Origin: Methanomicrobiales archaeon
Lineage (GTDB): Archaea; Halobacteriota; Methanomicrobia; Methanomicrobiales; Methanospirillaceae
Assembly: GCA_025358115.1 (NCBI GenBank)
Contig: JANYKQ010000078.1
Span: 1 to 64,000, forward strand
Direction: 5' to 3'
DNA length: 64,000 nt
Under the pieces are notes generated by a model. It ran no database searches and was not told the DNA's origin. It worked only from the letters and a program-made list of their open reading frames with translations. The first letter of the stretch is position 1. The number at the start of each line of letters is the position of its first letter. The translations under genes were made by a program, and so were the position numbers. Shown piece after piece: positions 33,789 to 40,157 of this stretch.

Positions 33789-35468
33789 TTACAGCGTAAT
33801 CTTCTTGAGGATCTGCCCGTTCCGGAAGATAGTGATCACGCCGCCACTCTGGGATACTACGATACCCACCGTTTTCGTCACCTGGGTTATGGCTGCGACA
33901 GAGTTATGCCGCGTGCCCATCCCCGGGAGGAGTTTGACACTGCTCGTGTCAACAGTAATATAGCGCCCTACCGATTCGACAAATCCATCCCCGGTGATGA
34001 TGAATGCACCGTCAAGCTGGGCCAGGGCCTTGATATTTTCCTTGAGTCCGGGATTCATCACAACGCGGTCTTCAGCTTTGTGCCCTTCGAACGGGTTCAA
34101 GATGATCTGGCGGGATTTTTCCAGCACATTTTTTGTATCGCCAATGAGAAACGTGGTACCGACCGGCTTTCCCTCCCTTCCCTCGATCGAGATCTCCGTG
34201 CAGATATGAAAGACCGCGTCAAAAACTTCTTCTTTTACATCGCTGTCAGAGATTACGAGATCCTTCCAGGTATCCGTACTGATACGCACCACGCCATCCC
34301 GTTTCCGGTCGGTGATGTCGTGACCGATACAGAGTATTTCCACAATGTGTCCCTTCTCATCCCGGATGGCTTTGTTGATCCAGGCAATCCAGACCCGGTC
34401 ACCATTGCGCCGGACATTCTCATTCACGTTGACAGCATATCCTTCGGCATTGAAACCCAGGTCATCTGCCATCATGGAGAGATCATTTCCTGAACGGGTC
34501 TTTGCGGGAACAATCGTGGTATTGACGTTCTTTCCAATCACTTCGTCGCTGGTATAATCAAAGAACGTGAGAGCATAGTGATTGAAGAAGGTGATAATAC
34601 CCTGCATGTCCATCCGGATGATGATACTCTGGGTGTTCTGCACTACTTCCCGGTACTTCGCCTCACTCTCTTTGAGCGCATCGGCAATCTTCTGTCGTTC
34701 TGAAATATCAGTCACGACAAACGTTCCGCCTTTGGAGATGTCGCGGGGATCAAGAGGCAGAACCCGAAGATGACAGGTAACCATTTTGTTATCCCGTTTC
34801 ACAAACTGCCAGCTCGCATGCGATACTCCCAAAACATCGAGTTTGATCTGCAATTCCCGGGAAAGGAGGTCATACTCTTCGGGGGAGGAAATAAAAGTGC
34901 GGAGATCTTTTCCCACAAGCTGCGACTCTTCATAGCCGAGCATGTCCGGAAACTGGTGGTTCACCCACTCGATAATTCCATTGCGGGCCTGGAAGATCCC
35001 CAGCGGGGTTGCTGAGAGGATGGCGGCAAGCTGCTCATTCTGCGCCTTGACCTCACGTTCGGATCGCTTGCGCAGCAGGGTCTGTTTGATCAGGTTGACC
35101 ATCTCAAAGATCTGCGGGCGGATGTCACCGGATTTTGGGAAGGTGATCTCGGTCCCGTGAGCAACTTCCATAACCGAGATCTTTGCCGGACTGCGCCTTC
35201 CCAGCAGGATCACCGGCGTAACATTACCCACGGATTTTAAGTATTTGATGAACTCGATCCCGTTCATGTCCGATACGAACTCAATGCCGTTCACATCGGG
35301 CTGCTGCTCGTAGGCCAGGATCACATCGTAATTGCGTCCTTTGAGTTTCTCGATGGCCTGTTTTATGGAATGGGCATTATCGATCTTAATCTCGCCGGTC
35401 TTTTCCAAAAACGAGCGCACCTGTGCGAAAAGATCCGTACTGTCATCGACAAACAAAACAGATATCAT
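33789..35468 (-). CDS. REC-like - PAS - PAS - diadenylate cyclase (DAC/DisA_N) fusion protein
   Basis: N-terminal VLFVDDSTDLFAQV; two PAS domains; C-terminal ISIEGREGKPVGTTFLIGD...SRQIILNPFEGH...LDGAFIITGDGFVESVGRYI...GMGTRHNSVAAIT. Confidence 0.85.
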   Translation of the reverse strand: MISVLFVDDSTDLFAQVRSFLEKTGEIKIDNAHSIKQAIEKLKGRNYDVILAYEQQPDVNGIEFVSDMNGIEFIKYLKSVGNVTPVILLGRRSPAKISVMEVAHGTEITFPKSGDIRPQIFEMVNLIKQTLLRKRSEREVKAQNEQLAAILSATPLGIFQARNGIIEWVNHQFPDMLGYEESQLVGKDLRTFISSPEEYDLLSRELQIKLDVLGVSHASWQFVKRDNKMVTCHLRVLPLDPRDISKGGTFVVTDISERQKIADALKESEAKYREVVQNTQSIIIRMDMQGIITFFNHYALTFFDYTSDEVIGKNVNTTIVPAKTRSGNDLSMMADDLGFNAEGYAVNVNENVRRNGDRVWIAWINKAIRDEKGHIVEILCIGHDITDRKRDGVVRISTDTWKDLVISDSDVKEEVFDAVFHICTEISIEGREGKPVGTTFLIGDTKNVLEKSRQIILNPFEGHKAEDRVVMNPGLKENIKALAQLDGAFIITGDGFVESVGRYITVDTSSVKLLPGMGTRHNSVAAITQVTKTVGIVVSQSGGVITIFRNGQILKKITL

Positions 35469-35624: not shown

Positions 35625-36131
35625 TCAGGATTCGGATACTTCCCCTGCATCCGTCCCGGGCTCTGTTTCATCGCCTTCATCATAGCTGTTTTCCCGGTAC
35701 AGCCACCATCCGATAATAAGAATAATCGGGACACCCACCGGTATCGCAAAACCGCCCTGGAATCGACATGCGGCAGATAATCCGAAAAGGATCCCCCCGG
35801 CAATAGTGAACAATGATGCCTTTTTGATCAAATTAAATCCGTCACCAGTATAATTCACATAAACCGTGATGATCAGACCGAGTAAGAGAATTATTGCCCC
35901 GATTGTCCATAAGCCGGCTGCTGCAATGTTAAATATCCCGGTATTCTGGCCAAGATAGATATAGAGAATATCCTTGTCACTTCGGATCAGGCTGTCCCCC
36001 AGACTGGATTGCTGAAACCGGAAGAGTGCCCACTGCACATTAATCAGGAACCAGTCGCCCCACATGTAAAAATTGAGGGGGATCAAAAAGATAAGGCACT
36101 GGAATATCAATGACGTTCTGATTTTGTCCAT
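35625..36131 (-). CDS. hypothetical membrane protein
   Basis: four predicted hydrophobic segments (MDKIRTSLIFQCLIFLIPLNF...). Confidence 0.6.
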   Translation of the reverse strand: MDKIRTSLIFQCLIFLIPLNFYMWGDWFLINVQWALFRFQQSSLGDSLIRSDKDILYIYLGQNTGIFNIAAAGLWTIGAIILLLGLIITVYVNYTGDGFNLIKKASLFTIAGGILFGLSAACRFQGGFAIPVGVPIILIIGWWLYRENSYDEGDETEPGTDAGEVSES

Positions 36132-36222
36132 AATAACCACAATACCTGATTATATTATTGCTGCAGGTTATAAAACCGGATGAATCATTCCTTAAAAAAG
36201 TAAATTCTGAAGAAGAATATTG

Positions 36223-36940: not shown

Positions 36941-38038
36941 TTATCCGGGGATTTCTTCCCATCGGTTGCGGAACTGTTTCTCGATACCCGGAAGGGTGGT
37001 ATACTCCATCTCTTCTGAAGAAAGGCGATGGGGTTCGAAGGGACCCTGATCCCGGACCATATCGGCCAGTTCATTGCAGCGTGCCCGCACGCGGTCAAAA
37101 CCGACATCATCAAACATATCAGCAGGGCCGATAAGTTCGCCATTACAGATCTGAAAACCCAGGCAGATACACCGTGGCGGGCCGTCAAACCGGGTCATGT
37201 TGGCATCGCAGACACCAACCGGCATGAACGGTCCGTGATGGGATCCCCGCATCCATCCGGCAACCAGGGTAGGTGTACAGAACGGCTCGATCACTTCCCC
37301 GACAGACGGAAGCCCGCTCTGGGCACGGACGATCATAACCGGATCATCCTTTCCAACATACCTGCCGGCAGTGAGGTTTAACTTTTCCGTGCTGGTCGAT
37401 GCGGCAATAACACCGTCTTTCCGGTAAACGTACTTGACAACGTACCGGGAACAGGCACCGATATAGGAAAGGAGGGTGTACGTCTCCTCGGGACACCTGA
37501 ATGTGATGCGCCGTTTCTTAATCACATCATGCACTTCGAAAATAAACCCCTGGTGCATGCTGGGATCGATAACAAGACCGGAGGTATTGAAGGGGTCGGC
37601 AAATATTTTGTACAGGAAGAAATTCCACGCGCCGGGTTCGGTTTTATCAGCCATGAAAATAAGAACCGGATCCGATCCCCGCTCTTCAAATTCCATTTCA
37701 GCCACACCGGGGCCAAGACCCCTGACATTACCGGAAAATGCATCCGAGAGCATATCCTGGCCTGCACCATAGAGTTTCATGCTTTTGGCAATTTTGGTGC
37801 ATTCCATGAACACCTCCCATGCAAGCTTGTGCACCTCCTCATTATCCACGCCATGAGCGTGGGTCATGATAAGCTCGAGATCATCACCACAGTGAGTGAC
37901 AAAACAATCAATGAGGAGCTTTCCTTTCTGACCTTTGAGCATCTTTGCTGCTTTTTCAAGGAGTTTCGGGTGAGTGCGGGAATGCCCGGGAAAACTTCCC
38001 ACATCCGCCTTGATTACGGAAATAGTTGTTTTTGGCAT
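36941..38038 (-). CDS. bifunctional fructose-1,6-bisphosphate aldolase/phosphatase (archaeal FBPA/P)
   Basis: TTISVIKADVGSFPGHSRTHP, IDCFVTHCGDDLELIMTH, FMADKTEPGAWN. Confidence 0.95.
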   Translation of the reverse strand: MPKTTISVIKADVGSFPGHSRTHPKLLEKAAKMLKGQKGKLLIDCFVTHCGDDLELIMTHAHGVDNEEVHKLAWEVFMECTKIAKSMKLYGAGQDMLSDAFSGNVRGLGPGVAEMEFEERGSDPVLIFMADKTEPGAWNFFLYKIFADPFNTSGLVIDPSMHQGFIFEVHDVIKKRRITFRCPEETYTLLSYIGACSRYVVKYVYRKDGVIAASTSTEKLNLTAGRYVGKDDPVMIVRAQSGLPSVGEVIEPFCTPTLVAGWMRGSHHGPFMPVGVCDANMTRFDGPPRCICLGFQICNGELIGPADMFDDVGFDRVRARCNELADMVRDQGPFEPHRLSSEEMEYTTLPGIEKQFRNRWEEIPG

Positions 38039-38090
38039 AACGGGATCATAATAGAATCTCGTTTTTATATAAAAAAGATATGTTTAATAA

Positions 38091-39230
38091 TTATTTGAGG
38101 GTCTTTCTGACAAGGGAGGCAGAACCATAGGAACCAAATGCCCTGAAAAAGATGAGACTTTCTGCATAGGCCATTGCCCGGATTGCCTTGTTCGTTTCTT
38201 CATCAACGGAATAGATCTGTTTGAAAAATTCCTTAATGGCCATTTTGCAGTTCCCGTCAAATACCTGCTTGTCCTTTTTCCCGGGGTTTAACGGGCCGTA
38301 TTTCTGGAGGGTCCATTCCTGGATCTCCTTGTAGAGGGCCGGTTCGTACACTTTAAAGATATCAAAGACTACATCCTGCCAGAAAGTCCCGACATTTCCC
38401 TTGATGATATCGCCTTTCGGGAAATGCTGGTTGATGAGATCGCGGGGAGTGCCGGTGATCCCGTGCTGGGCTATACCAACGTGAAGGTGATTATCCCGCA
38501 GGGCTTTTGCAACGGCCCGGGTCTGCGGGATATCGATGGAGAGCTGTTCGATAACATTTCCTGCTGCATCGTACACATGCCCGTGCGTGCTCCCGTTGGC
38601 AATGGCGATCACCTGGGGAAAGACCCCGTTCTCCTGCAGGGCTTTGATGAACTCTACTGCTTCCTGCGGTTTTGTAAGGATCAGGCCCTCCCCGTCCTTC
38701 CTGCCGATCTCCCCGACCTCCACTTCAAGGCCGAAATCCTTTCCTTTCATCCGGTTTTTGATATGATGAGCCAGATCGGTTGTTGCAATGATATTCTTTT
38801 CCAGTTCTTCCCGGACATTTTTTCCTTCAAAATTAAAGAGGTGGGAAGCATCGATGGCAAAGGAGGTATAACCTGCTGCAATCTGGGCATCGATCAACTG
38901 TTTGGTCCCCTCAATCTCCTGGGGAGAACCGGTCTTTATCGAGATATGATCTGCATGAAGAGCCCAGATATCGAACTCTGCGGCCTTTGCAGCCTCGTTC
39001 ATCTTTTCTGAAAATAGTTTGGGGGTAAAACCCGTATAGCCTCCGTTCAGGTCACACTCAGACCGGGCAAGCTCCATAAATACCGCGGAATCGGTATCCT
39101 TTGCAGCCTTAAAAATTCCCTCTGCTACGGTGGCAATCCGGATATTTGCCGCCATGATAATTGTTTTTTTTCCGGAGATACCCCCCAGTATGGTTGAACC
39201 GGGGATTGGACCAAATGTGTTCTGCTGCAT
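38091..39230 (-). CDS. class II fructose-bisphosphate aldolase-like protein (start may be internal)
   Basis: WALHADHISIK, FAIDASHLFNFEGKN, GLEVEVGEIGRKDGEG, ANGSTHGHVYD. Confidence 0.8.
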   Translation of the reverse strand: MQQNTFGPIPGSTILGGISGKKTIIMAANIRIATVAEGIFKAAKDTDSAVFMELARSECDLNGGYTGFTPKLFSEKMNEAAKAAEFDIWALHADHISIKTGSPQEIEGTKQLIDAQIAAGYTSFAIDASHLFNFEGKNVREELEKNIIATTDLAHHIKNRMKGKDFGLEVEVGEIGRKDGEGLILTKPQEAVEFIKALQENGVFPQVIAIANGSTHGHVYDAAGNVIEQLSIDIPQTRAVAKALRDNHLHVGIAQHGITGTPRDLINQHFPKGDIIKGNVGTFWQDVVFDIFKVYEPALYKEIQEWTLQKYGPLNPGKKDKQVFDGNCKMAIKEFFKQIYSVDEETNKAIRAMAYAESLIFFRAFGSYGSASLVRKTLK

Positions 39231-39251
39231 AGATCTTCACTCCTGTTTAAA

Positions 39252-40157
39252 TCACTCATCACGCATAAACTTTTCAATGAGCCGGATCTCTTCCCTGCCC
39301 CCGACATAGATCGGAGTGACATCATCGATCCCTTGTGGAGTTATATCCAGGATATCATTCCTTCCATTACTGATTGCCCCCCCGGCTTCGCAGATGATCT
39401 TTCCCATCGGGTTGGCTTCATACAGGAGTCTCAGTTTTCCCTTTTCCCTTCCCTTAAAGCCGGGGTAGGTAAATACGCCACCCTTATGGAGGATCTGGTG
39501 GACATCGGCAACAAAACAGCCGCTGAACCGGAGTTTATACCCGGAATGCTCGAGATTCTCGATCCATCGGGCGTGGGCAGGGAAGTAATCCCTCCTCAGG
39601 GCACCGGGTGCATATATCTTCCCTTCCGGAATTTTGAGATCCCGGTGACGCAGGAAAAATTCACCCGTATCATCAAGGGCAAATTCATGAACACCTTTTC
39701 CGGTAGTAAATGTCAGGGTTGTCAGGGGACCGTAGAGGATATACAGGGCCGCAATCATTGACGCGCCCTTTTCCAGGACATGACCGGGATAGATACCAAT
39801 GATCGAACCCGTGCAGAGGTTAACATCGATAAGCGATGATCCGTCAAGAGGATCGATGACAACGCCGAAGTTGTTCTTCGGATTATCCACCTCAATAATC
39901 TTATGCTGCTCTTCCGTGGCGATATACCTGACGAGCCGTGTCTGCTGTAATCCTGAAATGAAGACATCATCGGCATACATGTCGAGAGCCATCTGCTCTT
40001 CGCCGTACATATTCTTGGTACTTTCATCTGCCGGGGTTTTCCTGATCGAACAGAAAAATCCTTTCTTCACTTGCTGAGCCTGTTTGCCCAAAAAGAGAAT
40101 TAACTCCATCAGGTTTTTTTCTGTTCCTGCGCTGACAAGGAAATCTTTGAGTATCAT
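39252..40157 (-). CDS. fbp: class I fructose-1,6-bisphosphatase
   Basis: [41 protein letters not shown]. Confidence 0.93.

Follow-up and report, generated by a model that had tools for sequence, protein, structure and literature searches.

The signals that control c-di-AMP synthesis are largely open, above all in archaea, and the gene studied here raises the question of whether a diadenylate cyclase (DAC) joined to sensor domains makes this second messenger on demand, and which kind of signal it would follow. The window, that is, the whole stretch of 64,000 nucleotides that was analysed, comes from a Methanoregula-type methanogen of the Methanomicrobiales, the assembly of which is 2.26 Mb long and 70% complete. 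At 33789..35468 on the minus strand it carries an intact open reading frame, starting with ATG, for a DacX-type diadenylate cyclase of 559 aa with the order receiver (REC), PAS, PAS and DAC. We hold with good confidence that this protein is a DacX-class sensor-cyclase, located in the cytoplasm and probably dimeric, which is gated by its PAS domains and is usually the sole source of c-di-AMP in Methanoregula. The domains, the catalytic residues, the loss of the phospho-acceptor Asp, the sole-copy status in most of the genus and the presence of RCK_C proteins are read from the sequence, and from them we infer activity, gating, ligand and targets.

Domain organization and integrity of the gene

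The preliminary description had proposed a REC-PAS-PAS-DAC fusion at this place, and the fusion is borne out by all four domains scoring above their Pfam cut-offs, by the intact frame and by synteny. Response_reg is matched at residues 4-94 with 40.5 bits (cut-off 30.2), PAS matches lie at about 145-259 and 271-387 (PAS_9 84.7, PAS 74.6 bits), and PF02457, the family against which the C-terminal region was to be checked, is matched at residues 427-552 with 65.3 bits (cut-off 27, E=5e-18). Pfam and the structure model alike find two PAS domains. Along the protein, and always on the minus strand, the receiver (residues 1-116, 35121..35468) is followed by a long helix leading to PAS1 in the AlphaFold model (117-153, 35010..35120), PAS1 itself (154-255, 34704..35009), an inter-PAS helix of the same model (256-279, 34632..34703), PAS2 (280-388, 34305..34631) and the DAC domain (401-559, 33792..34268). 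The full-length model has a pTM of only 0.46 and does not fix the domain arrangement, which counts against the sensor-cyclase reading. The DAC domain modelled alone reaches pLDDT 89 and pTM 0.88, and every one of its 50 best fold matches is a solved diadenylate cyclase, among them CdaA and the c-di-AMP-bound DisA of M. tuberculosis; one of the 50, 2fb5, is titled a hypothetical protein and is a CdaS homologue (PMC8573169). By sequence, the best solved relatives of this domain are diadenylate cyclases too.

The open frame extends 52 codons upstream of the ATG used; nearly all genus orthologues share the start 'M[IF]SVLF', which argues that the ATG is right. The orthologues are moreover co-linear, and together with the shared start and the conserved synteny this shows that neither the fusion nor its start is an assembly artefact; a recent transfer of the gene is likewise ruled out by synteny. 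Throughout Methanoregula, and in part in Methanolinea, the gene keeps its neighbours: one flank has FBPase and aldolase genes together with genes for an LSM and an HTH protein, the other has genes for ADP-forming acyl-CoA synthetase, GCS2 and RimK-like proteins. None of the conserved neighbours points to a signal. Relatives of the DAC domain at 73-98% identity are mostly records named Methanoregula or Methanomicrobiales. A tblastn search of plasmids with the window protein gave matches to PAS proteins only, at about 23% identity and over at most 78% of the query, and the window protein itself was not among them.

Two side observations concern the same neighbourhood. At 36941-40157 on the minus strand, FBPase_3 (the archaeal FBPase), a class II aldolase and a conventional FBPase stand in a row, so that two unrelated fructose-bisphosphatases are adjacent. 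Between the cyclase and the HTH/LSM genes, at 35625-36140 on the minus strand, lies a gene for a probable membrane protein of 171 aa with no Pfam match, which is present in some Methanoregula loci and missing from others.

The catalytic site

All three DAC motifs quoted in the preliminary description are present, with the refinement that RHN stands for the bacterial RHR. Over an alignment of 49 relatives, D486-G487-A488 (the DGA motif, 34005..34013 on the minus strand) is invariant, and so are G518, R520 and H521 of the GTRHN motif (residues 518-522, 33903..33917 on the same strand; GTRHR in bacteria). The third RHR residue is Asn in the window protein and its Methanoregula orthologues, and elsewhere in the same DAC clade it is Ser, Ala, Thr, Gly, Val or Arg. 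The DacZ proteins of the order have Arg, Leu or Met there, including those of genomes with DacZ as the only DAC found. Replacing the whole RHR by AAA abolishes the activity of M. tuberculosis DisA, a result that says nothing on the third Arg alone (PMC3328451). In addition, the VSE of CdaA is VSQ in the window protein, and both replacements count against the sensor-cyclase reading. DisA is not known to have the Glu of VSE either, and with the remaining site invariant we dropped this change as one that kills the enzyme.

Taken at face value, RHN and VSQ might indicate a catalytically dead domain that senses c-di-AMP or ATP and controls a partner, which we regard as very unlikely. The DGA motif, the R-H pair and their surrounding residues are kept throughout, and the DAC domain is the most conserved part of the protein in the genus; it is the only DAC in most genomes of the genus, and RCK_C genes persist in the window's genome; DacZ proteins, also where no other DAC is found beside them, vary at the third RHR position too. 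From the invariance of DGA and R-H and from this variation among sole DacZ enzymes, we read the site as active, and the gene product very probably makes c-di-AMP with sensor domains built in. Diadenylate cyclases require a head-to-head dimer, and blocking the dimer can inhibit them (PMC8573169). In the active enzyme proposed here, two DAC domains with one ATP each would meet head-to-head and form c-di-AMP.

The N-terminal receiver

At the position of the phospho-acceptor Asp the window protein has Tyr53 (35310..35312 on the minus strand). Among the 38 genus orthologues having this region, the residue is Tyr in 33, Cys in 3 and Phe in 2, never Asp, and the Asp is missing also in the receivers of other genera inspected. 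The beta4 Ser/Thr and beta5 Lys switch positions drift among the genus orthologues, and an insertion right behind the phospho-loop carries a second copy of the NGIEF found in the next helix (NGIEFVSDMNGIEF). The receiver model has strands in place of alpha4, and the fold is still over the Pfam cut-off; mean pairwise identity of this domain in the genus is 64.5%. Judged by these residues, the domain is a pseudo-receiver and not the usual phospho-switch.

The Pfam fold and the acidic pair D8-D9, kept in nearly all orthologues, could still be brought forward for the receiver as input, with a histidine kinase phosphorylating it and thereby switching the cyclase as in response-regulator diguanylate cyclases. 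With 38 of 38 acceptors replaced, drifting switch positions, an insertion behind the phospho-loop and, in the part of the conserved neighbourhood that was inspected, no histidine kinase gene, such an input is hardly credible, and a phospho-relay is ruled out by the missing Asp. We propose that the degenerate receiver would act as a dimerisation or partner-docking module. Since it has no phosphorylatable Asp, the input signal of the sensor-cyclase is likely a PAS ligand or redox state, chiefly via PAS2. The sensor-coupled synthase suggested at the outset is hence retained in its fusion, with sensor-controlled c-di-AMP synthesis as the most likely role, but not with REC as a usual phospho-switch.

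Unequal conservation of the two PAS domains

Mean pairwise identity in the genus is 54% for the variable PAS1, 80.5% for PAS2 and 82% for DAC. PAS2 is thus about as conserved as the cyclase; it has 43 residues invariant in the genus and ends in an invariant D-I-T (D384 and T386). Among solved folds, the PAS pair matches best with DosP and FixL, which are heme proteins. Neither a heme-ligand His nor a LOV Cys was recognised by eye in either PAS sequence, and the linker of about 12 residues between PAS2 and DAC has no predicted helix or coiled coil in the AlphaFold model; we count both against the sensor-cyclase reading. In the mechanism that we favour, the PAS domains, above all PAS2 beside the cyclase, would respond to a ligand or to redox state by moving the DAC domains relative to each other, and the rate of synthesis would change accordingly.

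An active cyclase with constitutive output would need REC-PAS-PAS only for dimerisation or localisation, the c-di-AMP level being set by degradation or expression. PAS domains are often dimerisation modules, no cofactor site was recognised, and a sole DAC may need steady output, as in Haloferax, where the sole DAC, DacZ, is active and essential (PMC6741144). We find this unlikely, because a PAS2 as conserved as the catalytic domain, with so many invariant residues, exceeds what a bare dimeriser needs, and because several other sensor-like inputs (PKD, TPR, TrkH) are found joined to DACs related to it.

A separate DAC clade and the apparent loss of DacZ

In the tree of DAC domains, the order's DacZ proteins and the remaining DACs stand on opposite sides of a fully supported split. 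The preliminary description had noted that archaeal DacZ is normally free of REC-PAS modules; a reading of the window protein as DacZ plus add-ons is not supported, its DAC lying on the other side of this split from DacZ. Fusions of this kind are already classed as DacX (PMC6741144). The N-termini found in this second clade are REC-PAS-PAS, PAS-PAS without a recognised REC, PKD (probably extracellular), TPR and a whole TrkH potassium transporter, and a Hydrothermarchaeota record groups in the clade too.

The distribution of DacZ differs sharply between families. Outside the window's family, 87 of the 89 genomes of the order that were sampled carry DacZ_A; inside it, one genome (G152) of about 70 does, these per-family counts being a tally in which the 51 genomes without a match are not listed by name; none of the listed genomes of the window's genus has it. 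Three further genomes of the window's family (G163-G165) keep a DacZ-like DAC; in the one of them that was scanned, DacZ_A could not be recognised. In family f3 both DAC kinds are mostly retained. A second stand-alone DacZ, which the preliminary description had suggested looking for, is found neither in the window's genome, whose 70% completeness is a point against our main reading, nor in any of 37 sampled genus genomes with a DAC. These have one second-clade DAC in 30 cases, two in 5 and three in 2, a count that includes incomplete genomes and rests on retrieved DAC matches only.

It appears that in Methanoregula the REC-PAS-PAS-DAC protein has taken the place of the plain archaeal DacZ. The simplest history would be that the second clade was gained before these families split and that DacZ was then lost in most of the window's family; transfer is a possible alternative. 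As most Methanoregula genomes (30/37) have a single DAC of the REC-PAS-PAS-DAC kind, virtually all the c-di-AMP made there is probably under the control of an intracellular PAS sensor, and a sensor on the sole source would set the whole cellular pool. In general terms, we lean towards the view that Methanoregula and most of its family lost DacZ, whose Haloferax counterpart is essential, and draw all their c-di-AMP from sensor-fused enzymes of the separate clade (here PAS behind a dead receiver), with the pool set by an intracellular chemical or redox signal and not by a housekeeping enzyme. In the papers covered by our search, to which key DAC reviews do not belong, there is no account of a dead receiver, of PAS domains that differ in conservation or of a family-wide DacZ loss, and these points seem unreported.

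Other fusions were met in the same clade. TrkH and DAC share one open frame in Methanomicrobiales of family f3 (L062 336-2411, 692 aa; L174 1277-3475, 733 aa; L073 180-2321, 714 aa, cut by the contig end; all on the plus strand), which joins a K+ uptake protein to a c-di-AMP synthase domain and is seen on no fewer than two different contigs; by title or abstract, our literature search found no paper about such a fusion. Methanoregulaceae and relatives have proteins with PKD, a likely membrane segment and a C-terminal DAC (L038 1980-3494, minus; L098 1-1899 and L135 408-2402, plus), possibly surface-sensing c-di-AMP synthases, and Methanospirillum and relatives have TPR-DAC fusions (L074 1483-2838, minus; L095 163-1899, L127 1104-2399 and L078 559-1902, plus). 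Short DACs of the clade occur in Methanoperedens (L173 5695-6447, plus, 251 aa, with a weak, below-cut-off MIT match at the N-terminus) and in one genome of the Methanoregula genus (L036 1980-2819, minus, 280 aa, no N-terminal Pfam match).

A possible c-di-AMP circuit

The window's genome has six RCK_C matches, namely two TrkA proteins, two antiporters, an ion channel and one short protein, and also a protein of 494 aa with RCK_N (TrkA_N), DHH and DHHA1 (L227 1438-2919, minus strand), a candidate c-di-AMP phosphodiesterase with a nucleotide-sensing domain. In bacteria, RCK_C domains are c-di-AMP receptors and DHH-DHHA1 proteins are phosphodiesterases, so that a complete c-di-AMP circuit is plausible here. 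The pool would probably control K+ and ion transport via the RCK_C (TrkA_C) proteins.

The lineage, which includes cultivated species (M. boonei, M. formicica), appears dependent on a single soluble, sensor-bearing cyclase, so that screening ligands against this one protein could reveal the signal. The DacZ-containing families, set beside those with sensor-fused cyclases, also offer a natural comparison for the replacement of a housekeeping second-messenger enzyme.

Comparison with known systems

Archaeal DACs have been divided by attached domains into five classes, DacV to DacZ, with M. boonei A7I8S2 among the DacX representatives (Corrigan and Grundling 2013, as cited in Braun et al. 2019, PMC6741144). 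The M. boonei genome (G010) has a single DAC, the orthologue of the syntenic clade with the same REC-PAS-PAS-DAC layout; A7I8S2 must be this gene, because it is the only DAC of that genome, and the window protein is accordingly a DacX. It is a member of a named, apparently uncharacterised class, of the same layout as the M. boonei protein with no substantial difference beyond the species, and its architecture is not new. We found no experimental work on DacX, PMC6741144 being the sole paper found that names it with diadenylate cyclases, and a census of archaeal two-component systems does not mention DAC output domains (PMC5847659).

DacZ or CdaZ (Haloferax volcanii HVO_1660; NF041371; DacZ_A PF21754) is likewise an archaeal DAC and usually the sole c-di-AMP source, but the window protein has no N-terminal DacZ_A or PK_C-like domain (none is found in the window's genome), scores 106 bits with NF041371 against a cut-off of 430 set for the haloarchaeal family, reads LDGAF/GTRHN where DacZ reads LDGVF/GGRH, and falls in a separate clade. 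With bacterial DisA and CdaA it has the DAC fold and the DGA and R-H motifs in common, and differs from them in RHN for RHR, in its N-terminal sensors, and in having no HhH/DNA-binding or membrane part. In its way of working it would resemble DosP and the response-regulator GGDEF proteins, in which a PAS sensor is fused to a cyclic-dinucleotide enzyme; compared with these c-di-GMP enzymes it has another catalytic domain and product, a receiver without the phospho-Asp, and PAS domains with no heme ligand identified.
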